Positions 1,968 to 39,332 of a DNA stretch of 39,706 bases are shown piece after piece. The stretch spans positions 1-39,706 of IMG/VR virus record IMGVR_UViG_3300046488_000043. One strand, 5' to 3'. The notes under the pieces were generated by a model, which did not search any database, had not been told where the DNA came from, and was given only the letters and a program-made list of their open reading frames with translations. A program made the translations under genes and the position numbers. Every line of letters begins with the position of its first letter. Positions within the stretch are counted from its first letter, which is position 1. This DNA comes from a virus.

Positions 1968-1979
1968 GGATAACATATA

Positions 1980-2273: not shown

Positions 2274-2276
2274 AAA

Positions 2277-2468: not shown

Positions 2469-2471
2469 AAT

Positions 2472-2705: not shown

Positions 2706-3028
2706 TTACTTCTTATATCCCGTATTGCATTCATAACTTCGAGCCGAAATTCTTTAAGACTATCATAAAGTCTATCATGTCCTGTTTTTTGTTCAGATCT
2801 AAGTAATTCAATATCCTTATCGATACGCTCGCCAAAACGGAAAAATTCCTCCTTATCGAGTTTTTCAGCAGTAGTTTTACTTACTGATGCAATTGAATCT
2901 TTTAATGTTCCTATTTTTTCATTCATTTCTGTCTTATCACTTTTTCTAATGCTAAGGAAAATAGGAACTAAGATTCCTAAAAGTGTTCCTACTGCTATTA
3001 CTGCTGTCCAAATCAACATCCAATCCAT
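2702..3028 (-). CDS. Membrane-anchored coiled-coil protein
   Basis: The product has 108 residues: one N-terminal transmembrane segment (about residues 4-26) followed by a charged helical, coiled-coil-like region (about residues 30-108). It starts at ATG 3028 after AAAAGGGC. It overlaps the holin candidate downstream. Two TATAAATA boxes and a hairpin (AAGTAT with ATACTT) lie upstream. It may assist lysis or be a membrane scaffold. No specific family is claimed. Confidence 0.65.
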   Translation of the reverse strand: MDWMLIWTAVIAVGTLLGILVPIFLSIRKSDKTEMNEKIGTLKDSIASVSKTTAEKLDKEEFFRFGERIDKDIELLRSEQKTGHDRLYDSLKEFRLEVMNAIRDIRSK

Positions 3029-3106
3029 TTTATATGTGCCCTTTTATGTTAGCGTGACCAATACCTGGCACTGTGTTATTAAAATAAAGTATATAATACT
3101 TTCTTA

Positions 3107-18260: not shown

Positions 18261-18796
18261 TATCCGCGGAACCTTACGGTTGATAGGCCGGGTGCATACA
18301 TATTATTACCACCTGTGTCATCTTTTAATACCTGACTATTAGGTATTTTAATAAATGGTAAATCTAATGCAGTTGCAAGTGTCCATTCAATAGTAAATTT
18401 ATCATGTTTAGTCTTTTGTTCAATATAATAAACCTCTAATGGTAGATATTGGGTCGAATCAGGTGTGGTTCCGTTATCTAAAAACTTTGCAAGTGTTCTG
18501 ACACGAGTAACCTTGCCCCGCACCATATCGCTAAGCGACTGAACATATGGCTGAACAACCTTTGTGACATTAGATACTGCTAACTTTGGGCGTGGTGGTT
18601 GATCACTTGTTACTTCAAAGTTAGTCCCTTTAATAGGGAATGGTATAAATGTCCCAAAAGATCCAAATCCCACTGCTGAATCGCTTGCATTAGTAAATCT
18701 AAATACAGATGAACCTAATGCAGTAAGGTCAATAATGAATCCTTCCCAATAAGGGCTTGGATTCATTGTATTCAATTCTTGTTTTAATGTAGTCAT
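18260..18796 (-). CDS. Minor tail protein L-like, short form
   Basis: The product has 178 residues. PSPYWEGFIIDLTALG, PIKGTNFEVTSDQPPRPKL and LEVYYIEQKTKHDKFTIEWTLATALD match the first domain of lambda L. Lambda L is about 230 residues and ends in a domain with four cysteines binding an iron-sulfur cluster; here the protein stops at STVRFRG and has no cysteine at all. The stop overlaps the start of K. The gap before its start (18797-18935) is unusually long for this block. Confidence 0.8.
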   Translation of the reverse strand: MTTLKQELNTMNPSPYWEGFIIDLTALGSSVFRFTNASDSAVGFGSFGTFIPFPIKGTNFEVTSDQPPRPKLAVSNVTKVVQPYVQSLSDMVRGKVTRVRTLAKFLDNGTTPDSTQYLPLEVYYIEQKTKHDKFTIEWTLATALDLPFIKIPNSQVLKDDTGGNNMYAPGLSTVRFRG

Positions 18797-18935
18797 CTAA
18801 TTTATTCCTGGTTAATTTAATTGTAATTTGGACTTGTTATATACATGGGTAGTGGGGGAGACTGCACTATAATATTATATATTCTTTTCTCTCACATAGC
18901 ACATTCACAAACATCTCTTAGAGATATGTGAGTTA
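18797..18935. other. Non-coding gap between M and L with repeat and hairpin
   Basis: 139 bases without a gene in an otherwise compact tail operon. It holds one copy of a two-block dispersed repeat (18816-18851 and 18861-18879, shared with 35958-36020). A nested hairpin follows: CTCACAT with ATGTGAG (18891-18897 with 18926-18932) enclosing ATCTC with GAGAT. No promoter box of the TATAAATA type is present. Confidence 0.7.
18816..18879. repeat. Dispersed repeat, copy 1
   Basis: 36 bases identical to 35958-35993, a short divergent spacer, then 19 bases matching 36002-36020 with one mismatch. Confidence 0.9.
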
Positions 18936-19280
18936 TCATAACCATACTTGTTTAACTTTCTGTTGAATCGTATATATACTACCTGCCATTGCATTAATAC
19001 TTCGTGGCCCTTCTAATATGTATTTCTTACTCACAGTATCAAATGGACTTGTCCATGTAAAGTAATCACCTGTTTCTAATGAATCTAAGAAACTGTTTAC
19101 TGTATTAGTATCAGTTTGGTTTAGATTCTGCCATTCGATACTAATATGATCACGCAAAAAGTTAATTCCATTTGGAACACGCTGTAGATAACCGTTACCC
19201 ATTACTACTTCAACCATATTCTGTTCAATTGATTTTGTTGTGTTTTGTGAAGGCACAACTCCCGGAAATGTTGCTGGCAT
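18936..19280 (-). CDS. Minor tail protein M-like
   Basis: The product has 114 residues. MPATFPGVVPS at the start, FLRDHISIEWQNLNQTD, FLDSLETGDYFTW and PRSINAMAGSIYTIQQKVKQV match the lambda M family, a small tail-tip protein that sits between the tape measure end and L. It lies five bases after the tape measure gene, as expected. Confidence 0.85.
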   Translation of the reverse strand: MPATFPGVVPSQNTTKSIEQNMVEVVMGNGYLQRVPNGINFLRDHISIEWQNLNQTDTNTVNSFLDSLETGDYFTWTSPFDTVSKKYILEGPRSINAMAGSIYTIQQKVKQVWL

Positions 19281-19285
19281 ATTTT

Positions 19286-21787: not shown

Positions 21788-21793
21788 CTTATA

Positions 21794-22195
21794 TTATTCC
21801 TTATTATTCAGTTCTTGTTGGTGTGCAAGTTCATCTAAATATGCTTTATCAATATCCTTTATTATTCTAATATCAATATAGCGTAAATCCTCTTCCATAA
21901 TAGACATATAGTCTTTAATATTACTATCACTTATCGGTTGTGGCCCACTATCTATATTTATACGAGACCTTCCTACTTCTTGCCATTGAATATAAATCCA
22001 TTGCTCATATGCATTTAATTCTATTTGTGTGGGAATATCTTTACCATTAAGTATAGTGGGTATAGATTTACCTAATTTTTTAATAAACTCCAATTGTTGT
22101 GCCAGAGAACCTTGCTTAGTTGGATAATTAAGAATTATATAGTTGCTTATATAGATCTGTGTATTATTTTTTGCTTGGTCGAAAAAAGTTAGCAC
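21794..22195 (-). CDS. Tail assembly chaperone, T extension (frameshift product)
   Basis: About 133 residues open in the frame that overlaps the end of the G gene by 32 bases; the nominal start is GTG 22195, but no ribosome-binding site precedes it. In lambda-type phages the second frame is made only as a G-T fusion by ribosomal frameshifting, and the fusion loads the tape measure protein. Here the T frame is +1 (equivalently -2) relative to G. The shift must occur between the T-frame stop at 22228-22226 and the G stop at 22164. Two six-base homopolymers on the minus strand, T6 (22187-22182) and A6 (22172-22167), are candidate slip sites. Confidence 0.75.
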   Translation of the reverse strand: MLTFFDQAKNNTQIYISNYIILNYPTKQGSLAQQLEFIKKLGKSIPTILNGKDIPTQIELNAYEQWIYIQWQEVGRSRINIDSGPQPISDSNIKDYMSIMEEDLRYIDIRIIKDIDKAYLDELAHQQELNNKE

Positions 22196-22601
22196 GCTCT
22201 TGAGCGAACGCCTCCACTTGTTCCATTATCATATTTGCTTCTGGCTTAGTGAATAATTCTTTTGCATATTCGGGACTATAAGGGGCACCAAATGCCTCAT
22301 CATTGTCCCAACCAACAATAAATGATACTACCATGTCTCTCTTCAATGCAGCAATCTTCTCTAATTCTTCCGGCTTTAGGTCAGTAAGTTTCTTACCAGC
22401 ATAGGGTAACATCTTTCTCTCTGCTTCTCTATATTGTTTACTATCGGTTCCGACTACTTTAAGTTTAACTCCAGTTGGATTAACAAATTCATAGATGGGT
22501 TGACCACCAGGTGTCTTACCAATTTCTTGTTGTTCGCCCATAAGTTCCAATTCGCTAACCTTTGCAAATAGATCCATAATACTTACTGTTTTCTTTGTCA
22601 T
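22164..22601 (-). CDS. Tail assembly chaperone G-like
   Basis: The product has 145 residues, highly charged and helical, beginning MTKKTVSIMDLFAKVSELEL and ending ERANFFRPSKK. Position (tail tube - this - T frame - tape measure), size and the overlapping second frame identify the tail chaperone G. It coats the tape measure protein before tail tube assembly. An AAGGAGA ribosome-binding site and a GATAAATA box (22642-22635) lie upstream, behind a terminator that closes the tail tube gene. Confidence 0.8.
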   Translation of the reverse strand: MTKKTVSIMDLFAKVSELELMGEQQEIGKTPGGQPIYEFVNPTGVKLKVVGTDSKQYREAERKMLPYAGKKLTDLKPEELEKIAALKRDMVVSFIVGWDNDEAFGAPYSPEYAKELFTKPEANMIMEQVEAFAQERANFFRPSKK

Positions 22602-22634
22602 AAGTTTCTCCTTAAGTGTAAATGACTACAAAAC

Positions 22635-22642
22635 TATTTATC
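22635..22642 (-). promoter_or_regulatory. T4-late-like promoter box for G-T-H operon
   Basis: GATAAATA on the minus strand, directly after a terminator T-run and about 34 bases before the start of G. Confidence 0.6.
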
Positions 22643-22665
22643 AAAAAAATAGGCCCCGAAGGGCC
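22643..22665 (-). terminator. Terminator of the tail tube gene
   Basis: GGCCC, loop, GGGCC (22652-22656 with 22661-22665) with a UUCG-like loop, followed by a run of seven T on the minus strand. Confidence 0.85.
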
Positions 22666-22685
22666 ATATCTTTTCTTAATGTAGA

Positions 22686-23612
22686 TTAAGTGCGTGTTAC
22701 AACAATATTAGAAGCACTTGTTGAATCATAAAAACCGACAAATGGCATTGACATAACAACCGGACCATTACCTTGCACTGTCTTAGCAGCACCATGGTAA
22801 CGCACATTAGGAATTAGAAATTCATGTGAGTTTGTGCTATTGTTCAGTGTAAAATCTAATGTAGTCGATGTGCTATTGATAAACTTATTATACATAACTG
22901 CATCTTCTAAATAAACCTGTGCTGTTCCAGTAATTTCTAAGAAGTTCTGGCTAAAATCACGGATTGTATTAGAGCCTAATGCAAAGTTACTTGTTGTTTT
23001 ATTTTCGATGGTAATATCTAAAGACATAAATGAAGCAAATGCTGTTCCACCTTCCTTAAATGTACCGCCGTTATGAACAAATGGTAAAGCAACTTGTGCA
23101 GCGGTATAGAAACCACCGGGACCTGTACCTGCAGTTGTATCAACTGAGACTGTAGTAACAGTAGGACTATCTTTACCAACAAAGGTAAACTTAGCAGTAA
23201 CAATACCGTTAGTAGCAAGTTTAAGTTGAAGTTTATCAACAATCATACCATTATATTGGAAAAACTGTGCAATGTCTAATTGTGCATGTTCGATTGTAAA
23301 CGATTTGCGTGTATTACCAATCTTCAGGACATTAGTGTTGAATACATTACTCATCATTGATTCTAAGAATGAATCAAAGTTAAGTGGACTATAAGCAACA
23401 TCAATATCGCCACCGATGTGTGTATTACCTGTTACCGATGGGCGATACATTCTATCACCCTGAATAGACTGATCTAAATACTTGTCATGAACTGTATTTA
23501 CGGTAAAACCTGTGAATGGAATGTCTAAGAGTGCTGGTGTAGCTGGTGTTGTTCCAAATACTGTTTCAACTACTGCACCAATGGCACTGCGACTACCTAC
23601 TGCGATTGTCAT
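22686..23612 (-). CDS. Major tail tube protein
   Basis: The product has 308 residues. GSRSAIGAVVETVFGTTPATP near the N-terminus and the all-beta pattern after it match phage tail tube proteins of long-tailed phages. It should form the hexameric rings of the tail tube. It sits between the connector genes (plus an HNH endonuclease) and the chaperone pair, and it has its own promoter box, 5-prime hairpin and strong terminator, consistent with very high late expression. Confidence 0.85.
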   Translation of the reverse strand: MTIAVGSRSAIGAVVETVFGTTPATPALLDIPFTGFTVNTVHDKYLDQSIQGDRMYRPSVTGNTHIGGDIDVAYSPLNFDSFLESMMSNVFNTNVLKIGNTRKSFTIEHAQLDIAQFFQYNGMIVDKLQLKLATNGIVTAKFTFVGKDSPTVTTVSVDTTAGTGPGGFYTAAQVALPFVHNGGTFKEGGTAFASFMSLDITIENKTTSNFALGSNTIRDFSQNFLEITGTAQVYLEDAVMYNKFINSTSTTLDFTLNNSTNSHEFLIPNVRYHGAAKTVQGNGPVVMSMPFVGFYDSTSASNIVVTRT

Positions 23613-23635
23613 AATATATTATTCCTTATAAAATT

Positions 23636-23654
23636 AATGTTTTGGCCAAACATT
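23636..23654 (-). promoter_or_regulatory. 5-prime hairpin of tail tube mRNA
   Basis: AATGTTT with AAACATT around GGCC, just downstream of the promoter box at 23673-23666 and before the AAGGAAT ribosome-binding site. Confidence 0.5.
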
Positions 23655-23665
23655 GTATGTGTTAA

Positions 23666-23690
23666 TATTTAGCATACTCATATATTTAGC
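23666..23690 (-). promoter_or_regulatory. Two promoter boxes upstream of tail tube gene
   Basis: GCTAAATA at 23690-23683 (inside the end of the HNH gene) and again at 23673-23666 on the minus strand. Confidence 0.5.
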
Positions 23691-24031
23691 AAATGTCTAT
23701 TTCTAAATGCCTTCCGTTGATTAAATGCTCGTTGTTTTGCAATTGCTCTTCTAATCCATCTCTTATATTTAATTACTTTGTATCGTCTATGTTCACAATT
23801 AAGTGAATCGATTAGGAAACATTCAACACTAAATATCTGATTTAAGAAGCCCATCTTATATAACAACAAGTGGGCCAAATAATGTTCTCTTATTGTTAAA
23901 CTAACTAAATTATCTAAGTTATCTTCTCCACCACAACTGCGTGGGACTATATGATGCCTTTCGGTATAACCATAAGTATGCCTATATTCAGCACGCTTTA
24001 TAAGTTGATCATATATCTTAGCATAATCCAT
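23678..24031 (-). CDS. HNH homing endonuclease (free-standing)
   Basis: The product has 117 residues. The HNH core is RHHIVPRSCGGEDNLDNLVSL with His26-His27, Asn41 and, after it, H50 in REHYLAHLLL. The C-terminus is basic (RRYKVIKYKRWIRR), as for DNA binding. Its ATG overlaps the stop of the tail terminator gene (TAATG). It is an intruder between two structural genes and probably cuts the matching site in related phages to spread. There is no sign of an intron. Confidence 0.85.
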   Translation of the reverse strand: MDYAKIYDQLIKRAEYRHTYGYTERHHIVPRSCGGEDNLDNLVSLTIREHYLAHLLLYKMGFLNQIFSVECFLIDSLNCEHRRYKVIKYKRWIRRAIAKQRAFNQRKAFRNRHLLNI

Positions 24032-24450
24032 TATGCATTATCGTAATATTGCCATGATACAACAATAGGTAGATGATAAAAAGTGGCCTGGGTGAGAGAA
24101 CTTGAAGGTAGTCTATAGACTTTATCTACTAATACTTTAGTTGACCCACCTGTATAATATGTGCCACGCTTATATTTGCTCATTATTAAATCTGCCATAG
24201 TTGCAGCATCAATGTTACCACTATTTTGTGGATAAAATAAATCTACCTGGTAAAGACCTTGGTCCATTCTTAATCCAACTTGACCAATCCCGATAACTTG
24301 AGTTTGTGCTGGCAGTAAAGTCGAACGACACCATGGTTTAGTTGCAGTTACCTGTGATTTAATATTTTCTTGTGTAAATGTAGGTAAACCAGTGGTAGTC
24401 TTTAATATTGTATCAAATATTTGTTGTATAGATGTGTATGATTGACTCAT
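24031..24450 (-). CDS. Tail terminator-like protein
   Basis: The product has 139 residues. The start (SIQQIFDTIL), LLPAQTQVIGIG, GLYQVDLFYPQNSG and HLPIVVSWQYYDNA match small phage proteins of the tail-terminator class (related in role to lambda U), which cap the tail tube and join it to the head. It overlaps the preceding connector gene (ATGA) and is followed by the inserted HNH gene before the tail tube gene. Confidence 0.7.
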   Translation of the reverse strand: MSQSYTSIQQIFDTILKTTTGLPTFTQENIKSQVTATKPWCRSTLLPAQTQVIGIGQVGLRMDQGLYQVDLFYPQNSGNIDAATMADLIMSKYKRGTYYTGGSTKVLVDKVYRLPSSSLTQATFYHLPIVVSWQYYDNA

Positions 24451-24752
24451 TCAATTCCCGCCTTCTGTTTTGCAATAGCAATAATATCATCTGCTTCTAA
24501 CATCGTAGTCTGAATCATTGCATGTGGCTTAATATATTCTGTGCCCAATTCTAAATATACAATATAATCTTGTGTATTTTTTAGATAATATACATCATTA
24601 TCTTTCTCGATATAATATCCTTGTTGTGCAGCACCTGTTTTAACTGGTGTTCTTGCAGCCACCCTACGCATAAATTCATTCATAAATTCTGCCATGAATG
24701 TATCCATCTTCTTAGCAAAATCATTAGCAATAGTTTCGTTTGTATTAGACAT
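24447..24752 (-). CDS. Head-tail connector protein, HK97 gp10-like
   Basis: The product has 101 residues from ATG 24752, which overlaps the previous stop codon (TAATG); an upstream in-frame TTG at 24776 is less likely. The motif RTPVKTGAAQQGYYIEKD and YIVYLELGTEYIKPHAMI are typical of HK97 gp10/lambda Z-like neck proteins that complete the joint between head and tail. It is surrounded by other connector genes in the expected order. Confidence 0.75.
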   Translation of the reverse strand: MSNTNETIANDFAKKMDTFMAEFMNEFMRRVAARTPVKTGAAQQGYYIEKDNDVYYLKNTQDYIVYLELGTEYIKPHAMIQTTMLEADDIIAIAKQKAGIE

Positions 24753-25078
24753 TATGTAATAGTTAAGGTATAGCAAATGGTTGTGTCTTCCATTCTAATT
24801 GTATTAACATCAACTACGCTATAGATATGCTTATGTGAATCTGTTAATACATCGAATAGTTCGGGGACATATTTTGCACTATATTGGATAGTTATTGTTC
24901 TTGCATCTGATGACATAGGTGATGGACCACCATTATCAATATTGCGTAAGAATTGTTTATCAGCAGTCCCTTTTAGATGTGCTAATATTTTAGTTCCACG
25001 ACTGCAAGTGAATGGCTCGCCTAATAATGCAATAACATCATTAATATCTTTTCTAAATGACATTGATTCTGCCGACAT
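24752..25078 (-). CDS. Head-tail joining protein
   Basis: The product has 108 residues, small and mainly beta, with TITIQYSAKYVPELFDVLTDSHKH in its second half and a short hydrophobic end. Position between the adaptor and gp10-like genes and its size fit a head-closure or joining protein (comparable in role to lambda FII or the HK97 head-closure protein). Sequence alone does not fix which. A TATAAATA match (25095-25088) lies just before the start codon. Confidence 0.55.
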   Translation of the reverse strand: MSAESMSFRKDINDVIALLGEPFTCSRGTKILAHLKGTADKQFLRNIDNGGPSPMSSDARTITIQYSAKYVPELFDVLTDSHKHIYSVVDVNTIRMEDTTICYTLTIT

Positions 25079-25079
25079 A

Positions 25080-25526
25080 TTAAGTCCTATTTATAATTAA
25101 CCAGTTAAATTTATCTGCATTACCACCACCTGCATTACTCTTTACAATAAAACTTACGCCAGGAACAATATCAGATGATAATGTATATAGAGCCGCTGAA
25201 CCCATTGCATCTGCGTGTGATACAAAAATTAATGAATCTGCCCTAACATTTGTTGTATTAATAACAACTGCACCGGGGCCAATTACTAATTGTGCCTGGC
25301 CTGCTGATGCATCACCTGCATTCACTCCATCAATTGCACTCATTGTAATTTCATTACAACTAATAGAGTATGCATTAATGTTATTTGCTAATACATCACC
25401 ATTGAATGTGCCTTTATATTCTGGAATAGGTTCTGCCATTAATGCAGCATTTTCTGTAGTTAATTGGGATGCAACTGCACCTTTCCTCCAATCGACTATA
25501 TGCGTATTGGTTGATTTTGTTGTCAT
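25080..25526 (-). CDS. Capsid decoration/trimeric beta-domain protein
   Basis: The product has 148 residues. The second half (QLVIGPGAVVINTTNVRADSL, ALYTLSSDIVPGVSFIVKSN, NWLIIN) matches a beta domain that often ends phage surface proteins. It lies between the adaptor and the joining protein gene, so a capsid decoration or fibre role at the head or neck is likely. A CTCC-complement ribosome-binding site (AAGGAGA) precedes the ATG. Confidence 0.6.
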   Translation of the reverse strand: MTTKSTNTHIVDWRKGAVASQLTTENAALMAEPIPEYKGTFNGDVLANNINAYSISCNEITMSAIDGVNAGDASAGQAQLVIGPGAVVINTTNVRADSLIFVSHADAMGSAALYTLSSDIVPGVSFIVKSNAGGGNADKFNWLIINRT

Positions 25527-25535
25527 ATTATCTCC

Positions 25536-26117
25536 TTAAAGACTTAGATAAGTCGGGTTACTACTCTTCTTCAATAATGGATAGATAATCTTTTCTACCT
25601 TCCAAAATCCTGTATAGCGTTCTGTATCAATATCGCGGCCATATGTAGTGCTAATGCCTGTGCTGCCGGCCTTAATTTGTTTATTTGTAGTAAACTTCAA
25701 TAGATTTGGCTGTGGGAAAATATCTACACCATTAATATACATTAATGCAACTTCACATACTGCCTTCTTTAATTGATCGGGAATATAACCTGTTTGTAAA
25801 ACTTGTATCTGATTGATAACCATTGTGAATCGTGGAAACAATAATGCCTGCAAATATGCCTGTTGTGGATATTGTTGACTAATACCTTGACTACGCGGGA
25901 TACTATAAAATTCTTGTCCATATAAAATATCAATACTCTGTGTTGCTTGAATTAATGCTTCCTGTTGCTTAGATATATCGGTAAGCTGTGTCCATGCTTT
26001 ATTACCAAATTGAATATGGTAATTTGTTGCATATGTTAGATCAACATATGAATTAGCGTTAGTTAACCCTGCTCCAGTTTCAACTACCATTGTAATGCCG
26101 GGAAATTCTGTAGTCAT
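25536..26117 (-). CDS. Head-tail adaptor (DnaT-like domain family)
   Basis: The product has 193 residues. VVETGAGLTNANSYVDLTYA, EALIQATQSIDILYGQEF and LKKAVCEVALMYINGVD match a phage adaptor family annotated as DnaT-like. It follows the coat gene, as adaptors that bind the portal do. It has a perfect TATAAATA box at 26146-26139 and AGGAG ribosome-binding site. A strong terminator lies just upstream. Confidence 0.75.
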   Translation of the reverse strand: MTTEFPGITMVVETGAGLTNANSYVDLTYATNYHIQFGNKAWTQLTDISKQQEALIQATQSIDILYGQEFYSIPRSQGISQQYPQQAYLQALLFPRFTMVINQIQVLQTGYIPDQLKKAVCEVALMYINGVDIFPQPNLLKFTTNKQIKAGSTGISTTYGRDIDTERYTGFWKVEKIIYPLLKKSSNPTYLSL

Positions 26118-26138
26118 AATAGTGTGCTCCTCTTCTTA

Positions 26139-26146
26139 TATTTATA
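26139..26146 (-). promoter_or_regulatory. T4-late-like promoter box for connector operon
   Basis: Perfect TATAAATA right after the coat-gene terminator; it would drive the adaptor and the connector genes downstream. Confidence 0.65.
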
Positions 26147-26152
26147 CAAAGC

Positions 26153-26176
26153 AAAATAGGGACCGAAGCCCCTATT
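26153..26176 (-). terminator. Terminator of the major coat gene
   Basis: AATAGGG with CCCTATT (26155-26161 with 26170-26176), a CUUCGG-type stable loop, then TTTT on the minus strand. Confidence 0.85.
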
Positions 26177-26195
26177 CTAATGAGTCAATTAGGGA

Positions 26196-27410
26196 TTAAC
26201 CTAATAGCAATGCAGCAAACTCTGGCTTGTTAGCCAACGAACCCCATGCAGCACCAACTTCATAGTGAACCTGACGATATACTTTGTATTCTGCAACCTG
26301 ATAAGAGATTCCAGAAACCTCATCGTATACTAATTCAACAGCAGCAGCAGCATCACCACCGGCTGGCATAATTGGTGCACGAGTTGCAAGCATAAGTGCA
26401 GTTGGGTGCAATACCATGTTACCCTTATAGTTGTTACCAACAGTCATTGTAACTGCATCAGCAAGTGTTTGTTGCAAACCAGGTGCAGCAATAGTCATAA
26501 CTTGACCGGCAGCAGTAACACCAGAAACAACAACATATACATTTGCATCACCAGCAAAAGTAACAATGTCACCAGCAACCACTGTGCCAGAACCTGTCTT
26601 CAACTTAATTGCAGTTTCGCCAACAGCATAAGCAGTTCCACCAACAGAACCAGTGCCATCAGATGCATATGTAGCAGCACCAGTGCCCTTTGTGTGTGCA
26701 TTCTTATCAATTTGTGCGGACTTGTGGAACTTTAAGTTAAGCACTTCATTGATGATACCCTTGCGTAAGAATGCATCTGTTCCAGCTTCATTAGCCTTCC
26801 AAAGCGAACTTTGTTTACCTGTCATATTTGCATATGCAGCAAAGCCCATGATAATTCTACGGTCATCTTCTGGTGCACCATTGTTATCTAAAATAAGATG
26901 TGCATTAGCAAAGTCGCTAAAATCACCAACTGTGTTGAATGGGCTTGTGCCTGCTGCACCTGTAGCACGAGATGAACCACCATTAAGCATTGTAGCAACC
27001 AAAGATGCTTCGATTGTGTTGTCCAATGTTCTGAATGCTTGTGTAAACTGATCACGGAAGATAACTTCGAAGTTACTACCAACAGCGCGTTGTTCTTCAC
27101 CTGTCCACTGAATTGGTGCAGCATATGAATTAGCAATAACCAAATCTTTGTAAAGGATTGTCTGACCACCTGTGTTAGGCACAACATTGGATGGTGCAAT
27201 TGCAGTCAATCCAACTGGCTGTGTTACTGGTGAACGAACAGTTTGTCCAACTGCTGCCTGTGCTTCAGATGCATCACGAGTTGCTGCTGTGATCAAACCA
27301 ATTTGTTCACGAGCGACACGGTCGCGTGCTTCATAGATAATCGGGATAAGAGCCGATAGTGTTGTGGCACCTGCACCTGCATAGTTTGTGCCGCCCTGAA
27401 TATTTGCCAT
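26196..27410 (-). CDS. Major capsid protein, P22 coat-like
   Basis: The product has 404 residues. The C-terminal part with NMVLHPTALMLATRAPIMP, YDEVSGISYQVAEYKVYRQVHYEV and the N-terminal EARDRVAREQIGLI match the P22 coat (gp5) family, an HK97-fold coat protein with an inserted beta domain (here around residues 230-320, Gly/Thr/Val-rich). It assembles with the scaffold at 28163-28765 and the portal. Three promoter boxes lie upstream and a strong terminator follows, as expected for the most abundant virion protein. Confidence 0.9.
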   Translation of the reverse strand: MANIQGGTNYAGAGATTLSALIPIIYEARDRVAREQIGLITAATRDASEAQAAVGQTVRSPVTQPVGLTAIAPSNVVPNTGGQTILYKDLVIANSYAAPIQWTGEEQRAVGSNFEVIFRDQFTQAFRTLDNTIEASLVATMLNGGSSRATGAAGTSPFNTVGDFSDFANAHLILDNNGAPEDDRRIIMGFAAYANMTGKQSSLWKANEAGTDAFLRKGIINEVLNLKFHKSAQIDKNAHTKGTGAATYASDGTGSVGGTAYAVGETAIKLKTGSGTVVAGDIVTFAGDANVYVVVSGVTAAGQVMTIAAPGLQQTLADAVTMTVGNNYKGNMVLHPTALMLATRAPIMPAGGDAAAAVELVYDEVSGISYQVAEYKVYRQVHYEVGAAWGSLANKPEFAALLLG

Positions 27411-27442
27411 AATTTATAACTCCTTAAGAATATTATGTTCTG

Positions 27443-27529
27443 TATTTATATTTCGAAATATGTATACCTACAATGTTATTTATATTCTGTAAGAATTTAA
27501 CAGATATAATGATTGCAATAGTATTTATG
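27443..27529 (-). promoter_or_regulatory. Triple T4-late-like promoter upstream of coat gene
   Basis: Three boxes on the minus strand: CATAAATA 27529-27522, TATAAATA 27484-27477 and TATAAATA 27450-27443. Then follows a CTTAAGGAG ribosome-binding site. The 119-base gap otherwise holds a small palindrome (ATATTTCGAAATAT) and no gene. Confidence 0.65.
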
Positions 27530-28105
27530 TTATTTGACATTGTTGGGTTTTGTATTATATTTTAACCCTGTTAATCCCTTATTCCAGGGAACACTGCCTT
27601 TTCTGGCTGCACTATGTTCGGATGATCGAGGTGGTTTGGCTACACCTTTAAGTTTTGCCGATATTTTAGCATTTGTTTCTGGTAATACTATTTGTAGTTT
27701 ACGAGCCTCTCTTAATAACTCTTTAGTATTCTCTGTGCATTTATGCCCCGGTTTACCTTTGTTAGGTGAAGGTAAACCTTTTCTACTATCGATAAAAGAT
27801 TGTGTATGTTTATATCCACTAATACCTTCGCCGCCAGCGGTTAAGTTGAATAGTGTGCCTTTGCCTAAATCTTCTCTGCCATAAAATGCAATCCAAAACA
27901 CTTCCATATCTAAGGCAGTTTGCTCATCTGCCTGATTAAAAATAATAGGCTGCAACGAAGCCCCGTCTCTGAATCGTTTGCGTAATGTATTACCCAATCG
28001 AGAACGCGATTTATTATGACTCCATGCTCGTTTATCGCATCCTTTACCTACATAAATCGGTGTACCATCTATATCTCTATACAAATAAGTATAATATTGT
28101 GTCAT
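27530..28105 (-). CDS. GIY-YIG homing endonuclease
   Basis: The product has 191 residues from ATG 28105 (an in-frame TTG at 28117 lies upstream). The nuclease core is YYTYLYRDIDGTPIYVGKG (residues about 4-22), the YxY/YVG form of the GIY-YIG signature. The C-terminal half has NUMOD3-type DNA-binding repeats (GLPSPNKGKPGHK, ARKGSVPWNKGLTG). It stands free between the scaffold and coat genes. The promoter box (28154-28147) is followed by a hairpin with a T-run before the start codon, which may keep its expression low. Confidence 0.9.
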   Translation of the reverse strand: MTQYYTYLYRDIDGTPIYVGKGCDKRAWSHNKSRSRLGNTLRKRFRDGASLQPIIFNQADEQTALDMEVFWIAFYGREDLGKGTLFNLTAGGEGISGYKHTQSFIDSRKGLPSPNKGKPGHKCTENTKELLREARKLQIVLPETNAKISAKLKGVAKPPRSSEHSAARKGSVPWNKGLTGLKYNTKPNNVK

Positions 28106-28118
28106 AAGTTTATCCAAT

Positions 28119-28146
28119 AAAAAAGCGTAACATCTCTGCTACGCTT
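28119..28146 (-). terminator. Hairpin with T-run before endonuclease gene
   Basis: AAGCGTA with TACGCTT (28123-28129 with 28140-28146), then six T on the minus strand. It can end the scaffold transcript or attenuate transcription from the promoter box directly upstream. Confidence 0.7.
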
Positions 28147-28154
28147 TATTTATC
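28147..28154 (-). promoter_or_regulatory. T4-late-like promoter box before endonuclease gene
   Basis: GATAAATA on the minus strand, immediately upstream of the hairpin with T-run. Confidence 0.5.
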
Positions 28155-28162
28155 TTTTATCT

Positions 28163-28765
28163 TTACCCGACGAGCCTACGCCCCGCTTTAATAGCAATTC
28201 TTTGATCCTTAGATGACATAGATGCCCATTCATCTATGGAAATAAGATTACCATTTGCTTTTGAAGAACCATCTGCTGCCATTCTTGCTTTAGTTGTACC
28301 TACACGAGTCTCGAATAGAAACCCATATTTGCTCTTAAGTTTAGAAACTGCTGCTGATAATGCTGTATCATCCACTGATTCGGTGTCTTCATCATATTCA
28401 ATGAGTGATTTATCTAATTGTTTAATAGCAAGTTCGATTGCATCACCATTAATACCCATTGCAGTAAGTTTAGATGTTGCTGCTGATGCAATAGCACCTG
28501 CCTTAGCCTTTTCTGCATACTTACTAATTTTAGAACTAACTTCCTCCAATTGATTCTTAAGATATTCGGTAACCTCTGGATTATCTTTTGGATCTTCCTT
28601 CTTTACTGTTGCTTTCTTGGATGAATCTCTTTCGGTAATTAATTGTTTATTAATATTGCGTTGTTTAGTTGCCTCCGCTTCTAACTCTGCAGCCTTAGCC
28701 TTCCAATCAATTTGTTGTTCCTGTGAACCTTCAACTTTTGTATCTTCTACTTTATTTTCTTCCAT
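28163..28765 (-). CDS. Scaffolding protein
   Basis: The product has 200 residues, acidic and strongly helical, with coiled-coil character between about residues 20 and 110 (KAAELEAEATKQRN, YLKNQLEEVSSKISKYAEKAKAG). It lies between portal and coat genes, the standard place for the phage scaffold that guides capsid assembly and then leaves. The C-terminal ISIDEWASMSSKDQRIAIKA is of the helix-turn type by which scaffolds bind coat protein. A GGAGAT ribosome-binding site and a hairpin (ATGCTA with TAGCAT) precede the start. Confidence 0.8.
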   Translation of the reverse strand: MEENKVEDTKVEGSQEQQIDWKAKAAELEAEATKQRNINKQLITERDSSKKATVKKEDPKDNPEVTEYLKNQLEEVSSKISKYAEKAKAGAIASAATSKLTAMGINGDAIELAIKQLDKSLIEYDEDTESVDDTALSAAVSKLKSKYGFLFETRVGTTKARMAADGSSKANGNLISIDEWASMSSKDQRIAIKAGRRLVG

Positions 28766-28826
28766 TTTGTGTTATCTCCATAACATAATGCTAAATCCAT
28801 AGCATATATAGACTATCTATATTCTT

Positions 28827-28834
28827 TATTTATC
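28827..28834 (-). promoter_or_regulatory. T4-late-like promoter box for scaffold
   Basis: GATAAATA on the minus strand just before the end of the portal gene's 3-prime flank, with a hairpin between it and the scaffold start codon. Confidence 0.55.
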
Positions 28835-28837
28835 CTC

Positions 28838-30478
28838 TTAAGCATTAGGAATGCCATTGGTTGATGTTCCTGTCTGTGGTTCTGGTGCCTTGGGTGGTGC
28901 AACTGCTGATGGTAATCCTACATTAGTCTTAGCATTAATCTCCATTACTTCTGCAATCTTAGCATCTGCTTCTTGTTCTGTTAAACCTTTTTCTTCCATA
29001 AAGTAATCTTTAATAGAAGCACGATTATTATCAATACGCAATGTCCAAATATTCTCTTGTTCCATTAGATTGACTGGTAGATTAGGTGGTGCAAATTCTG
29101 CTTGTAAATATCCATCAGTAAGTTGTCCTGGATAGATAACCTTTGTAATCTCATAGAAACGACGCAAACTCGATTGCATCATCTGTGCACGCATATCACG
29201 CAATTGAAGATTGTTTAATTCTTCCACAACTAATTGGAATCCACTGTTTGCTTTACCGCCACCACCATAGTTTAAGTTGACAGACCAATCATTAGCAACT
29301 GCTTGCACATAATTAGTGATGATAGTATCTAATGCTGCTAAATCTGTGTCTGGACCAACAAACTCTGCTTTACCAGCAGTTCCACCACCATCTAATCCTA
29401 ATTTAGCAATACTACCTAATCCACCCAACATAGATTGTTTGCGTGTTTGATAGAACGGAATATCATTATAGATTGCACCACCTGGGCTATTACCTAATTG
29501 TGCTGCTGGAATAAGTTGATCACCTGCATTATTATCATCATTAATAAGATCACCAGTAATAAACAAAGTCTTTTGCTTTTGGAATGCAATAGCAAACTCT
29601 GTATCAGTTAATGCTAAATTTACAACTTCTTGTAATGCAATAAGATCTTCAGAAGGGCGAACCCAAAAGTCTTTGCGTGGCTTACGAGTATCATAGAAGA
29701 ATGATGCTGGAACTATTCCATAAGGATTAGGTTCACGACTAATAACAGTTTCAATATTTTGTTGATTACTACTATAACGCGAATCATTTTGTTCATTTAC
29801 TTGAATTTCAATAATTTCTTCTGGTGTCCATACACAATAAGACCAATTCTTTGGGCGATTGCTATAACCTTTATCTAAATCATAGGAAATATCGTCTAAA
29901 ATATAAGCAAGTTCTGTAATCTTTGTTCGTGCTTCATTCATCTTTACAACAGTATTACCATAATGTAAGATTGTGAATAATAGTTGATCACCACGAGTAT
30001 AATCAAAGCGATATTGACCATTCTGTGTAGTGGTTCCATCAGGAACAGATAATTGTTGTAAGACGATAGTTGAGCCACATAAGCGTGTATATACATCAAT
30101 ATTTTGCATTACTTCATTCCAGTCTGCATTCTCTAACATTTCTTGATAAACTGGGTCTACCACAGGTTCATTATTGACACCTGTAATAATATTAAGCTGT
30201 GGTGGCTTATTAAATAGTAAACCACTTTTATCTACAATAGATTTAATAACATTTCTTACACGCGGCACAATACCGCGGTGCTTCCATTCTTTGCGTTTAC
30301 CAAACCCATTCATTGCACCATCTAACATAGAGATAACATAATCACGCTGATCACCTTCGTAGTAATCAACCAACTTTTGCATATCTATTGCTTCATCATC
30401 AAAAAAATCATCATAATCGATGGTTTTGCCTGGAATAAGATTATCGTTGTCATCGTCTTGCATATTAGGTGTTGTCAT
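28838..30478 (-). CDS. Portal protein
   Basis: The product has 546 residues. The segments VDYYEGDQRDYVIS, RVRNVIKSIVDKSGLLFNKPP, LCGSTIVLQQLS, VVNLALTDTEFAIAFQKQK and the helical end with QEADAKIAEVMEIN are those of phage portal proteins of the SPP1/HK97-type fold. Twelve copies form the DNA entry channel at one capsid vertex. It follows the large terminase, as usual, and has its own CATAAATA box. Confidence 0.85.
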   Translation of the reverse strand: MTTPNMQDDDNDNLIPGKTIDYDDFFDDEAIDMQKLVDYYEGDQRDYVISMLDGAMNGFGKRKEWKHRGIVPRVRNVIKSIVDKSGLLFNKPPQLNIITGVNNEPVVDPVYQEMLENADWNEVMQNIDVYTRLCGSTIVLQQLSVPDGTTTQNGQYRFDYTRGDQLLFTILHYGNTVVKMNEARTKITELAYILDDISYDLDKGYSNRPKNWSYCVWTPEEIIEIQVNEQNDSRYSSNQQNIETVISREPNPYGIVPASFFYDTRKPRKDFWVRPSEDLIALQEVVNLALTDTEFAIAFQKQKTLFITGDLINDDNNAGDQLIPAAQLGNSPGGAIYNDIPFYQTRKQSMLGGLGSIAKLGLDGGGTAGKAEFVGPDTDLAALDTIITNYVQAVANDWSVNLNYGGGGKANSGFQLVVEELNNLQLRDMRAQMMQSSLRRFYEITKVIYPGQLTDGYLQAEFAPPNLPVNLMEQENIWTLRIDNNRASIKDYFMEEKGLTEQEADAKIAEVMEINAKTNVGLPSAVAPPKAPEPQTGTSTNGIPNA

Positions 30479-30497
30479 TTGGTTGTTCCTTTGTCTA

Positions 30498-30505
30498 TAT
30501 TTATG
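30498..30505 (-). promoter_or_regulatory. T4-late-like promoter box for portal
   Basis: CATAAATA on the minus strand, filling the gap between the terminase stop and the portal ribosome-binding site (AAAGGAA). Confidence 0.55.
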
Positions 30506-31801
30506 TTATCTTAATACTGTAATCTTCGCGGCGTGTTTCGTTGGCGCCCAGACATAGGATATAAAATACCCTAATGCATCTGGGTGGTGGTCAATATCGC
30601 CGGCCTTATCGGGCTTGCCATCGATGTAACCCTGTTGTTCTATACATGCAGTTAGTCTGGGGCAAGTAACATCATTGATAAACAATGTTCTGCTGTTTAG
30701 TGAGTTACAAAACTTTAAGTTTACTGCACCTACTCTATCTGCAATAGGAATATGCCCCTTATAGTGGTGCACATTATCATTACCAAATGCACTCTTTAAT
30801 GCCATTACATCGGTCTTAGACATAGTGGTAAAATCACTACGCTGAATATCACCACTCCCATCAACAAAACATTTAATGGCTCTATTGGGGTATCTGCGTT
30901 TAATCTCTCTAATAAGATGTTCTGTATTCTGACAGCCATATATTTCATCTACAATGTGCGGTATTTGGCCAATAATAATGCCAACAGTAGTTGCCATTTT
31001 GCCCACATTAAAGTCGATACCTATGCTTAATGGTGCATTTGGATGTTTAGCAATTGTTTCTGTTGAGCGATTATGCACCCTATCATATGCATAATATACA
31101 TTACCTTCAGCAAAATTAATAAATTCATTACCTATATATGCAGCAAATTGTTTAGCAGTTAATTGTTGTCGCATCATTTCTATATATCCATCATCGATAA
31201 ACGGATTATCATCGACATAAATGTCAATCATCTCTCTGTCAGCACCTGCTTGCTCAACAAAGAATTTATAAGCCCATTGGAACCCTTCTTTAGTTGAAGT
31301 AACACATCCTTGCATCACATTACCCGATGTTAAACGCGATACCATTTTTTGCCATGCTTCTTTACATAGATCATATCCGCTTGTATCAAATTCATCTGCT
31401 ATAAACCATGCTACAGAGAAACCCCTAATACGATTCCAATTTTCACTACTCCTTAGGTAGATAACAACATCGCCTTCTAAGAAATGTAATTCAACTCGTG
31501 CATTGGTTGCCGATGAGCGTATTTCAAACCAGCATTTACCGGGTGTCTTTTTATCTGCCCACCCTAATAGAGATAACACTTCTTCCATAGTGGGTATAAG
31601 AACACCTGCAAGCATAGATGCAGTTGGTTCTAACATAAGTCCATTATATCCGATATTAAGCGAAGCTAAGTGAATTGCTTTTAAGCAAGCAACAAATGTT
31701 TTTCCACTTCTGTATGAACCCATAAGACCTAAGAACCTCACTTTGTCATTAAAGAGAAATTCTATCTGTGGTTTCATTAATTCAATATTAGGTATTGTCA
31801 T
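30506..31801 (-). CDS. Terminase large subunit
   Basis: The product has 431 residues from ATG 31801 (MTIPNIELMKPQ); earlier in-frame starts at 31807 and 31813 overlap the small-subunit gene further. The ATPase half has Walker A GSYRSGKT (28-35) and Walker B VAWFIADEFD (131-140, Asp137-Glu138). The nuclease half starts at SIGIDFNVGKMATTVG and ends with DIDHHPDALGYFISY. It pumps DNA into the prohead and cuts it. All key residues look intact. Confidence 0.92.
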   Translation of the reverse strand: MTIPNIELMKPQIEFLFNDKVRFLGLMGSYRSGKTFVACLKAIHLASLNIGYNGLMLEPTASMLAGVLIPTMEEVLSLLGWADKKTPGKCWFEIRSSATNARVELHFLEGDVVIYLRSSENWNRIRGFSVAWFIADEFDTSGYDLCKEAWQKMVSRLTSGNVMQGCVTSTKEGFQWAYKFFVEQAGADREMIDIYVDDNPFIDDGYIEMMRQQLTAKQFAAYIGNEFINFAEGNVYYAYDRVHNRSTETIAKHPNAPLSIGIDFNVGKMATTVGIIIGQIPHIVDEIYGCQNTEHLIREIKRRYPNRAIKCFVDGSGDIQRSDFTTMSKTDVMALKSAFGNDNVHHYKGHIPIADRVGAVNLKFCNSLNSRTLFINDVTCPRLTACIEQQGYIDGKPDKAGDIDHHPDALGYFISYVWAPTKHAAKITVLR

Positions 31802-32204
31802 CTTCATCCACAATGGGTTTCTTTTTAGATATTACAGAAACAGTGAATCCACTATTACTAACACTAATATCATCGGATGTTAATTCATTGCTAAAATTAG
31901 ATTCTGCTTTAAGCATTCTTGCAAGTCTATCACGCTCTGCTTGCCCATATTTAAGATCTTGTGCCACAGATAAAGATAACTGATAGAATTGGGTAAGTCC
32001 GCGTCTGCGACCTTTCTCCATCGCTGCTGTAATTTCGGGATATTCTAATTTCTTTGTGCTGAATACTGCTGCTGCAATACCTAAACCTGCAGCAATTGTT
32101 TGGTTATTAAAACCCATTGAAGCATCATCTTCGATCTGTTTTAATATTGTTGGTGTGGGTATCCATTTTGGACCACCGCGTGGTTTACTAATTTTTTCTG
32201 ACAT
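31788..32204 (-). CDS. Terminase small subunit
   Basis: The product has 138 residues with a helix-turn-helix-like start (LKQIEDDASMGFNNQTIAAGLGIAAAVF), a basic helix (EKGRRRGLTQFYQ) and an acidic tail. It overlaps the large-subunit gene directly downstream, which together with the fold pattern gives the assignment. It should recognise the packaging site, which has not been located. A TATAAATA box and hairpin precede it. Confidence 0.8.
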   Translation of the reverse strand: MSEKISKPRGGPKWIPTPTILKQIEDDASMGFNNQTIAAGLGIAAAVFSTKKLEYPEITAAMEKGRRRGLTQFYQLSLSVAQDLKYGQAERDRLARMLKAESNFSNELTSDDISVSNSGFTVSVISKKKPIVDEDDNT

Positions 32205-35957: not shown

Positions 35958-36020
35958 TTTAATTGTAATTTGGACTTGTTATATACATGGGTACTGTTAC
36001 TACTGCACCATAATATTATA
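35958..36020. repeat. Dispersed repeat, copy 2
   Basis: 36 bases identical to 18816-18851, plus 19 bases matching 18861-18879 with one mismatch. It spans the stop of the polymerase-like gene and ends at the start of the 63-aa gene. A further 14-base piece (GTTATATACATGGG) recurs at 36108-36121. Confidence 0.9.
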
Positions 36021-37406
36021 ATCATTTGCCTGTTTATTCTTAAAATGCTGTTGCATCCATGTAAGTTGTGTAATAAGTGTCTGAGACTCTTGCCCTACTT
36101 TACCGAAGTTATATACATGGGGTAAGTGAGTGTGTGGGGGTGTATTATGTTGGTGACTTAACTTAACTTCTTTAGGCGTAGCCGAAGTAAGTGTATCAGT
36201 CAATGAGGATGAGTTTACGAATCCGAAGTGCGATACACTTACTGGTGATGCGTTAGCATCGCCGACTATCTCACACACATGCTCTGCATCTATCTCTATC
36301 TTGAATCCTGTCTTATTCATAATATGTGCTTTAAGTGCTACTTCATCAACCATCATCTCTGTTGACCAACCGTCATGTTCTAAGAAACACTTGTTATTTG
36401 TCTTACTGAAATAATCATTTGCTGCATTAAGCACTTGTCTCTCTAAGTCGAAGTAACGAGCCCACTTCTGTTTACTGCTAATAGGTAACATCTTATTGTT
36501 GCCATTCTTATCAGTGATGGATCGGCGCGACATTGTTGGTTTAATAGCAGTCCAGCATTCCTTTATATCACTTCTAAGTGTAGTAAGCCATTCATCTTGC
36601 TTTAACCACTCAATGCGATTACTGTCGTGATTCATTAGCTTGCTTAAAGCAAATTCGGGAGAGTTACCTAAGCGTGCACCACAAAATAATGCATTGATAA
36701 GGATCTTGCTTGTTTTAGATGAATAGCCCTTTGCTTCATATAACTCTGCTTCATTAGTGATTCTATCTCTGTGTGATGTTCTATCTGCGAGATATGACTG
36801 CAAACCAAACAAGTATTCATCCATACCTTGATGTTGTGCATGTTGTAATATAAGTGTTGGTGCACAGCAACGAATATCATAATGATATTTCAATCCGTGA
36901 TTATTAAGAATCTCTGTTTTATATTCGCGCTTAATGTTCTGTAGCGGATGCCATAGTCTATTAGACTTATCAGTATACACAAATACTTTACAGTTTAGTT
37001 CATTGGCATGTTCTGCTTCTACCATTTTACTAACAACAAAGTGATCAAAATATCGTGTTGGTTCTTTAATCTGTTTTTGTTTAAGTTCTATTTGTTCATC
37101 TGGTGTAAATGCCTTATCTAAGTTGCCCTTAAGCACTGATTCGATATATGCTGCACCTGTAACATTTAATATGTATTTTTTAGATATGCCTGCGACTGCA
37201 CTATAATGGTGATCTGTACAAATAAGAAGTATCGATTTAAGCCACTTGCTTAAATCACCTTGTGATTGGCCGAATCTTTTATCGATTGCCTGTTGTGAGC
37301 GTTGTTGTGGTTCGGTTGGGCTGAATACGCCCTTAGTATAACCATACGCAAGTCTTACTGTTTTAAGAACCCTTACATTATTAAAGTTGGGTTGATATTT
37401 TATCAT
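36000..37406 (-). CDS. Putative single-subunit polymerase-like protein
   Basis: The product has 468 residues and is not a family I can name. Three blocks resemble the palm/fingers motifs of the PolA/T7 RNA polymerase superfamily. Block A-like: YHYDIRCCAPTLILQHA (Asp177). Block B-like: R213 to G243, with K234 and N238 in KTSKILINALFCGARLG. Block C-like: FLEHDGW with His344-Asp345-Gly346, the form seen in single-subunit RNA polymerases. Spacing (177 to 345) is short but possible. No exonuclease, primase or helicase motif is visible. The C-terminal 80 residues are low-complexity and His/Thr-rich. It has its own promoter box and hairpin. A replication or transcription enzyme is inferred from the motifs only. 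Confidence 0.45.
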   Translation of the reverse strand: MIKYQPNFNNVRVLKTVRLAYGYTKGVFSPTEPQQRSQQAIDKRFGQSQGDLSKWLKSILLICTDHHYSAVAGISKKYILNVTGAAYIESVLKGNLDKAFTPDEQIELKQKQIKEPTRYFDHFVVSKMVEAEHANELNCKVFVYTDKSNRLWHPLQNIKREYKTEILNNHGLKYHYDIRCCAPTLILQHAQHQGMDEYLFGLQSYLADRTSHRDRITNEAELYEAKGYSSKTSKILINALFCGARLGNSPEFALSKLMNHDSNRIEWLKQDEWLTTLRSDIKECWTAIKPTMSRRSITDKNGNNKMLPISSKQKWARYFDLERQVLNAANDYFSKTNNKCFLEHDGWSTEMMVDEVALKAHIMNKTGFKIEIDAEHVCEIVGDANASPVSVSHFGFVNSSSLTDTLTSATPKEVKLSHQHNTPPHTHLPHVYNFGKVGQESQTLITQLTWMQQHFKNKQANDYNIMVQ

Positions 37407-37568: not shown

Positions 37569-39332
37569 TTATTCACCAAACAACTCTTTTGATAACCCAC
37601 TATTATTCCACGACTCAATCCTTGTTGCTGCTATTGCCACATACTTTGGATCTAACTCACAACCGGTAAAGTGGTGTCCTAACTTGACTGCTGCCATACC
37701 TGTTGAACCAGACCCCATAAATGGATCTAAGACTTTACGCTGTAGTTCAGGTGTCGATGGTGGTGTGACTAACTTGATAAGATATTCCATTAGTGCCACT
37801 GGCTTCACGGTTGGGTGGTTGTTGCCGATTTGTGGTTTAGTGGAGTGATCTGCTTGTGTTCCGCGTGTTTGATCATCTTCACTGCATATGCGTTGATCAC
37901 CAATGTCAAACCCACTATGTCTCTCTTTGCGGCTAACCTTTGGACAATAGAAATACTTCTGATAACCTTCCGCAACTTCACCGATGACATTCGATGGATA
38001 GCGACCGGCATTGTGTGGTTCGATAATAGGTGTATCCTCATCTGCTGGAACATAACCTTGATGATCGCAAAACTTTGATATGTTACCTGCTGATTGTTGT
38101 GGCTTAAATGCACCTTGTTCACCCCACGGCACTCTCGTAGCGTCAATGTTCATAGCACCGAGACCGTTCTTTAATACATTATCAATCGTTGAGCCTTTGT
38201 ATGGTTTGCGTGCCATAACGATGGGCTCGTGTGCTGGTTTAGCGGTTGCGGCCAGGGAGAGTGTGTGCTTCTTGTTTGTAGCATTCACGAGAGCAATACA
38301 TTCCGTGTGGGTGTCTTTCAACTTCAACAGTGCGTCTTTCAAACTCTTTAGCACAGACTCGGCAGCCGATTGTTTGCCATCTTGACTTATCAGGGCCGGG
38401 ATGATGCTCTCTTGTATGCTCTTCGATAGCGAGTATCTCAAGGTTGTCAATAGCGTTGTTATGCTTGTTGCCGTCTCTGTGGTGGACATGCTCTCTACTT
38501 GTAAGAGGGCGACCGATGTGCTGCTCCATAACTGAACGATGTTCAAGATCGTTTCTTCTATCTCCAATAATGCGGACATATTCGCCGCTTGTGTCGCGTC
38601 TTGCTGGTGTTGACTGAGCATCACCATTGCACTTTGTTGAGCAGTATTTCTTTCCGAACCTGAGTATTGGGTTACCACATTGTTGACATATGAGCATAGC
38701 GCCTCCATTTGTAATGTTGTCTCATCGACACTATTACTTATCAAAGTGCGCTCAACCCCGCAACTTTTACGAGCCAATACTACGGGCTCCATTGCGGGTT
38801 TCAATGCTGTCTTAAATCCTTCCCATTGTTTTGCGAGCGGCGATGTGCAGACTGGTTGTGTAATGGTTGAATGTCTTTCGAGTCCTAATGTCTCATCGGT
38901 ATCATTTGCATTACTTTCTCTATTCTTAGATTCGTTTTGAATGCCACCATACTGTTTTAATAGGCGTACATCTTCTTGTTCAACACCCAATCGCTTCTGT
39001 ATCGCCTTACCAATATCCTGTGCCTTTGGAAAGCCTGAACTGTAAAGCCACATTAGTTGATCGCGTATTTCAAAGCCTGCCAATTCAATATTAGATGCTA
39101 ATTGATGATATGTTCTTGCTGCACTGAATGCAAGCATATATCCACCTGGCTTCAATACTCTAAGACATTCTTTATATAGTTCTAATGTGCCAGTGTGTTG
39201 ATCCCAATCCTTACCTAAGAATGCTATTCCATATGGTGGATCAGTAATGATTGAGTCGAAAGTGTTATCGGGATAGTTCTTTAGTGTGGCGAGATTATCG
39301 CCGAGGTGTAGGTTATATGGATTTGTCATCAT
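37569..39332 (-). CDS. DNA methyltransferase, beta class, carrying an overprinted HNH gene
   Basis: The product has 587 residues. The catalytic motif DPPYG is at residues 31-35, the AdoMet motif LDPFMGSGSTGMAA at 535-548, preceded by NHPTVKP (505-511): an N6-adenine or N4-cytosine methyltransferase of the beta order. Residues about 178-190 (LKPAMEPVVLARK) and 364-376 (AKPAHEPIVMARK) are a duplicated segment. It brackets about 185 extra residues of low-complexity helical sequence, whose DNA encodes an HNH endonuclease in another frame (38239-38697). Without the insert the protein would be about 400 residues, the usual size. Two possible starts (39332, 39329) are adjacent. Confidence 0.88.
   Translation of the reverse strand: MMTNPYNLHLGDNLATLKNYPDNTFDSIITDPPYGIAFLGKDWDQHTGTLELYKECLRVLKPGGYMLAFSAARTYHQLASNIELAGFEIRDQLMWLYSSGFPKAQDIGKAIQKRLGVEQEDVRLLKQYGGIQNESKNRESNANDTDETLGLERHSTITQPVCTSPLAKQWEGFKTALKPAMEPVVLARKSCGVERTLISNSVDETTLQMEALCSYVNNVVTQYSGSERNTAQQSAMVMLSQHQQDATQAANMSALLEIEETILNIVQLWSSTSVALLQVESMSTTETATSITTLLTTLRYSLSKSIQESIIPALISQDGKQSAAESVLKSLKDALLKLKDTHTECIALVNATNKKHTLSLAATAKPAHEPIVMARKPYKGSTIDNVLKNGLGAMNIDATRVPWGEQGAFKPQQSAGNISKFCDHQGYVPADEDTPIIEPHNAGRYPSNVIGEVAEGYQKYFYCPKVSRKERHSGFDIGDQRICSEDDQTRGTQADHSTKPQIGNNHPTVKPVALMEYLIKLVTPPSTPELQRKVLDPFMGSGSTGMAAVKLGHHFTGCELDPKYVAIAATRIESWNNSGLSKELFGE
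38239..38697 (-). CDS. HNH endonuclease overprinted within methyltransferase gene
   Basis: The product has 152 residues, read in the -1 frame of the methyltransferase gene on the same strand. A zinc finger (Cys4, Cys7, Cys19, Cys23) is followed by the HNH core SREHVHHRDGNKHNNAIDNL (68-87: His72-His73, Asn81/Asn85, then His94) and a second zinc finger (Cys112, Cys115, Cys135, Cys139). A strong GGAGG ribosome-binding site lies four bases before the ATG. It is very likely a homing endonuclease. The methyltransferase frame stays open through the whole gene. Confidence 0.9.
   Translation of the reverse strand: MLICQQCGNPILRFGKKYCSTKCNGDAQSTPARRDTSGEYVRIIGDRRNDLEHRSVMEQHIGRPLTSREHVHHRDGNKHNNAIDNLEILAIEEHTREHHPGPDKSRWQTIGCRVCAKEFERRTVEVERHPHGMYCSRECYKQEAHTLPGRNR
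38706..38827. repeat. 122-bp perfect direct repeat, copy 2
   Basis: Second copy of the sequence at 1-122. It covers the methyltransferase codons just before the embedded HNH gene and reaches the first base of that gene's GGAGG ribosome-binding site. Confidence 0.95.

Follow-up and report, generated by a model that had tools for sequence, protein, structure and literature searches.

The window analysed here, a 39,706-nt stretch of viral DNA (IMG/VR record IMGVR_UViG_3300046488_000043), carries on its minus strand an open reading frame (ORF) resembling beta-class DNA N6-adenine methyltransferases (MTases), and inside it, in another frame, an ORF resembling HNH homing endonucleases. The features of the locus are as follows.

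37569–39332, minus strand: MTase-like ORF (host gene), 587 aa, read through the insert
38802–39332, minus strand: N-terminal part of the MTase, codons 1–177, with DPPYG
after codon 178 (between codons 178 and 179): insertion point GTALK/P (marked by the slash), from alignment with empty MTases
38763–38801, next codon included, minus strand: left motif copy, KPAMEPVVLARK / KPAMEPVVLARKS
38238–38798, minus strand: insertion element, 561 nt = 187 codons, register set by empty-site MTases, placement ambiguous within a flanking repeat of ~36 nt
38702–38706, minus strand: Shine-Dalgarno GGAGG, inside MTase codons, 4 nt before the HNH ATG
38239–38697, minus strand: hidden HNH homing endonuclease-like ORF, 152 aa, −1 frame, wholly within the MTase ORF
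38202–38240, next codon included, minus strand: right motif copy, KPAHEPIVMARK / KPAHEPIVMARKP, modelled as a core strand
37569–38237, minus strand: C-terminal part of the MTase, codons 366–587, with the AdoMet motif DPFMGSGSTG
1–606, minus strand: second copy of the MTase, truncated at the contig end; bases 1–93 belong to a second copy of the insert, as its 5′ edge

Pfam matched N6_N4_Mtase to two stretches of the MTase (1.1e-28), and DPPY precedes an FxGxG-type motif in a protein with the MTase fold, as in beta-class DNA MTases. The beta-class N6-adenine MTases CcrM, M.BceJIV, RsrI and M1.HpyAVI have the same fold and motif order but, unlike the window MTase, carry no such insert. The inner ORF, offset by 635 nt in the MTase ORF (2 mod 3, i.e. 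the −1/+2 frame), matched HNH_3 beyond the cut-off (9e-9). Its HNH motif is central, with a zinc finger on either side, and the CxxC pairs and HNH residues are invariant in the window and its relatives. The HNH core is shared with I-HmuI-type homing endonucleases (best neighbour of solved structure 1u3e, a weak match at E 0.29); the gene for I-HmuI is carried by a group I intron, whereas there is none around the window HNH. The sequence-only reading of this locus had described a zinc finger–HNH–zinc finger ORF with a GGAGG ribosome-binding site (RBS), lying wholly inside the MTase in the −1 frame of the same strand and bracketed by a duplicated protein segment, with the MTase frame crossing it stop-free to reach the AdoMet motif. 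All of this is borne out by the ORF list, the HNH_3 match, the spacing of GGAGG and ATG, the coordinates and offset above, DPFMGSGSTG downstream and KPAxEPxxxARK motif copies on both sides.

The G+C content is 47% in the insert, 42% in the rest of the MTase gene and 37% in the window. Across the window HNH the host frame contains no stop and the third frame 15; synonymous-codon shuffling gave a mean of 1.97 host-frame stops, with only 1.7% of shuffles stop-free. Downstream of the MTase lies a 468-aa ORF (36000–37406, minus strand) with no Pfam or PHROG match, and a lambda-like siphovirus structural module (terminase, portal-like, major head protein, tape measure, central tail fibre J) occupies positions 11843–31813 on the minus strand.

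Relatives share the site and the frame

In a tblastn search of phage genomes, 16 records matched over 80% or more of the HNH, 15 of them from Mycobacterium phages and one from Cylindrospermopsis phage Cr-LKS3. The match lies under an annotated methylase in each, save one duplicate record annotated there as a hypothetical protein, and in the four loci that were translated the HNH occupies the same −1 frame (4/4). These loci were pooled with those from a scan in which viral contigs and bacterial genomes were searched with alignments. Alignments were required because neither the window HNH nor the window MTase, used as a single query sequence against IMG/VR, gave any match; the host-frame insert alone found no relative in phage records. 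Loci were classed as embedded when MTase profiles matched on both sides, or on the C-terminal side where the contig ends nearby, an open frame not being required. The pooled set comprises 49 embedded loci, 51 free-standing relatives and 2 partial cases. As the sequence-only reading had proposed, MTase inserts were thereby searched for −1-frame HNH ORFs, and all 49 embedded loci have the same site and frame relation. Their HNHs are ~34–54% identical to that of the window, and in most of them the methylase resumes directly past the HNH stop. Some embedded loci are metagenomic and may contain assembly errors; complete isolate genomes show the same arrangement.

Host-frame stops are avoided, whereas selection on the protein acts on the HNH

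The 49 embedded copies contain 0 host-frame stops versus 59.7 expected from synonymous shuffles, while the corresponding frame of the 51 free-standing relatives contains 191, versus 184.6 expected. With one embedded copy kept per cluster at 90, 60 or 45% identity, 0 stops were found against 47.7, 23.9 and 10.3 expected, the last for the 7 loci left at 45%. Since the deficit persists at every level of clustering, shared ancestry is not its explanation; nor can chance or faulty assembly account for one arrangement that recurs in 49 loci with no host-frame stop. Read most simply, these counts mean that ribosomes have to traverse the insert in the host frame.

An overlap-aware substitution count provided dN/dS for both frames. 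Values of 0.14–0.26 show the HNH protein to be under strong purifying selection. In the host frame, close pairs give a ratio of 0.49 (95% 0.25–0.74) and more distant pairs one of 0.79 (0.71–0.87). Free-standing HNHs, counted in the equivalent virtual frame, give 0.62, and a simulation with neutral host amino acids and moderate transition bias about 0.8. Because the HNH value is low and the host-frame ratio of the more distant pairs matches the neutral simulation, selection is seen to preserve the HNH protein, but of the host frame only its openness, the amino acids there being nearly neutral and little constrained; the close-pair ratio makes a weak amino-acid constraint possible. The idea that both frames are maintained thus stands as far as the stop-free host frame goes, and gives way where it implies equality, the HNH protein being strongly conserved and the host residues almost unconstrained. 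Host-frame protein conservation was dropped as a proof of dual coding, since ratios below 1 also occur in free-standing HNHs and in neutral simulations.

Two motif copies flank the insert

The majority of MTase relatives are without the insert, and such empty genes (most of L122–L200) carry a single motif, KPALEPITVARKP. Comparison of phage MISSy with Palpatine and Murphy reveals a 606-nt in-frame insertion at the motif point. Inserted genes have the motif on either side of the insert: every left copy retains the Pro and Glu of KPxxE, though the P and R of PxxxARKP are often lost from it, and the right copy tends to the opposite, with PxxxARKP kept and KPxxE eroded. The duplication first noticed in the window therefore flanks the insert family-wide, but in most relatives the copies have diverged complementarily, and the window is unusual in that its right copy is complete.

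In the embedded loci the MTase halves retain their catalytic motifs and have dN/dS values of 0.20 and 0.28, which may partly reflect the time before insertion. AlphaFold2 placed the right copy in a confident strand (residues 371–375; mean pLDDT of 92 over residues 371–380) and the left copy in a loop, and modelled residues 191–357 mostly as long helices at low to moderate confidence. The modelled insert-bearing MTase matches M.BceJIV, CcrM and RsrI over the whole chain, its halves forming one fold.

Expression signals of the HNH

A Shine-Dalgarno sequence of at least GGAG precedes the HNH start in 31 of 50 embedded copies, as against 5.8% in shifted control windows; the other 19 have no clear Shine-Dalgarno under the criteria used. 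For the HNH of phage ShiLan (L203), no detectable RBS was reported (PMC11855218), yet it too has a Shine-Dalgarno, in CTGGAGGACGAGTG. In-frame stops often lie 3–45 nt upstream of the Shine-Dalgarno-preceded starts, so that the HNH at those loci is not a frameshift product of the MTase, a long fusion being excluded. Where an RBS is present, leaderless initiation is not required, which bears on an open question of the earlier work (PMC11855218).

The insert moves independently of its host gene

The inserts of Cr-LKS3 (L003) and L017 are 3.8% diverged, whereas their host halves have dS values of 1.1 and 1.3. Divergence was taken from HMM-aligned halves; a comparison of fixed 360-nt flanks was set aside because inteins shift the register. 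Other insert/host pairs behave likewise, the inserts being far more alike than the hosts, and the insert thus moves independently of the host gene across the family.

The two MTase copies of the window share 122 identical bases (93 of insert and 29 of the flank before it) and are about 82% identical upstream of these. The second copy ends at the contig start, its visible part stopping short of the HNH. Judged from these bases, the pair looks like the product of a recent transfer with co-conversion between paralogues, or of a single source having invaded twice. If two full copies exist, an assembler would also be expected to break the contig within the repeat.

Other hidden HNH genes in methyltransferases

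HNHs hidden at other MTase sites (L012, L021, L024, L025, L032, L036, L061 and L064) have 0 host-frame stops against about 25 expected; L129, L195 and L175 are further cases, picked by an open-frame criterion. A second, different HNH lies in the MTase C-half of L012 (4863–5243), L032 (4099–4500) and L036 (2103–2489; L038 is a near copy), in the same frame relation and with no host stop. In L021 (2104–2541), L025 (3810–4385), L024 (2145–2639), L129 (3498–4001) and L195 (3507–3989), HNHs are overprinted on MTases in the +1 frame at other sites, with the host frame open. L061 and L064 (both 3001–3384) have a +1-frame HNH near the C-terminus of a different DNA MTase family. The alternative-frame HNH of L175 (2804–3493) lies within an MTase insertion that is intein-like by eye (CLSEDSEVLT...VFVTGNS) and in which Pfam calls no intein.

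Within the host MTase family, L004 (Mantra, 1413–3737) has an in-frame LAGLIDADG insertion at another site, and the N-halves of L005 (Starcevich) and L117 have intein-like insertions at other sites. This MTase family is a multiple-homing target.

Discussion

We consider it highly likely that the window holds a ShiLan-type out-of-frame HNH element, a selfish homing gene at the conserved GTALK/P of a phage MTase, and that the element's frame transparency explains why it is tolerated. In 2023 the ShiLan domain was described as an enigmatic methylase insertion (PMC9957025) and recognised in 2025 as an out-of-frame HNH from about ten mycobacteriophages (PMC11855218), and a later phage announcement contains another such insertion (PMC12613952). 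The sequence-only reading had supposed a homing-type HNH that enters a host gene without intron or intein by leaving the host frame open, with which the comparative data from 49 loci agree. It had also foreseen that the host-frame sequence might stand in databases as an unexplained MTase insertion, which is how the ShiLan domain was first noted (PMC9957025). Its view of the solution as unusual is superseded, since the kind was already published (PMC9957025, PMC11855218).

The window element displays every testable ShiLan-family feature: site, zinc fingers, open frame and independent movement. It differs in several details. The ShiLan HNH start was proposed at a GTG 18 nt in, whereas in the window it is an ATG preceded by GGAGG, some 100 nt from the beginning of the insert; the window has TAAA where ShiLan has TAAC; and its right motif copy is complete and begins with Pro, compared with Thr/Ser in the ShiLan type. 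Unlike ShiLan, the window phage is low in G+C and has two MTase copies sharing an insert edge in one contig. Pacc40 gp60 (PMC11855218) is likewise a phage methylase that stays open in its own frame while an alternative one contains an HNH-like ORF, but its methylase family, site and endonuclease are other than those of the window.

Based on these findings, we propose a plausible mechanism in which we infer DNA cleavage, HNH translation and activity of the interrupted MTase. Translation of the HNH would begin within the MTase message, at a start codon with a Shine-Dalgarno of its own, and the product presumably cuts insert-free MTase alleles at GTALK/P; its catalytic residues are intact in the window element. 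Repair from the occupied allele would then copy the element with some flank. The element is frame-transparent: its length is divisible by three, the MTase frame runs through it stop-free, and the KPxxEPxxxARKP strand recurs beyond it. The MTase would accordingly be made with a mostly helical extension of ~187 residues before the restored strand, and the host would survive because of this transparency.

Among other accounts, the interrupted MTase might be dead or dispensable, its frame staying open just to let ribosomes through to the HNH and the genes downstream. MTases of the host family are non-essential in mycobacteriophages (PMC11855218), and some embedded hosts appear broken further downstream (L047, phage OwlsT2W). 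The low dN/dS of the halves, even if partly pre-insertion history, the kept catalytic motifs and the complementary residues preserved by the two motif copies make this improbable. A functional MTase domain in the host frame, with the HNH as a secondary product, would suit the long modelled helices and the close-pair ratio of 0.49; it is scarcely credible given the invariant catalytic and zinc residues and dN/dS of about 0.17 of the HNH, the near-neutral host-frame amino acids and the many MTase relatives that do without the insert.

The insert might instead be removed. HNH endonucleases are frequently found in group I introns, and the sequence past the site resembles the insert start (PMC11855218), which would suit an unrecognised self-splicing intron carrying the HNH, with the open host frame incidental. 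Yet the HNH occupies 459 of the 561 nt, leaving no room outside it for an intron core, and a spliced intron needs no stop-free host frame, where 0 stops stand against about 60 expected. The sequence-only reading had named a group I intron core as evidence against itself, and Rfam searches for introns were negative for the window stretch at E values up to 5 and for 14 relatives at the gathering threshold; we regard an intron as very unlikely. Removal from the protein, as an odd intein, would account for the open host frame and the conserved site, and the same MTases host intein-like insertions at another site (L005, L117). However, Pfam matched neither Hint nor any other splicing domain to the host frame, the window insert starts with Pro and is followed by Pro rather than Cys, Ser or Thr, and the nearly neutral host-frame residues would be impossible for a splicing domain, so that we give an intein hardly any credence. 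The ShiLan-type reading accommodates these observations best.

New here are the breadth of the family, the stop-avoidance test and the split between selection on the protein and on openness, together with the RBS, the complementary motif copies and the hidden HNHs at other MTase sites. We lean towards the broader view that frame-transparent overprinting is a third general way besides introns and inteins, which evolved on several occasions among HNH lineages, using several sites and either of the alternative frames, and in which selection is directed mainly against host-frame stops.

An intron or intein is what normally allows a homing gene to spare its host gene. The element described here appears to need neither; avoiding stops in the second frame suffices. 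Such inserts lead annotators to miss endonucleases and to report puzzling MTase domains. What had been described from about ten mycobacteriophages thus becomes a statistically supported, widespread strategy in phages of diverse base composition.
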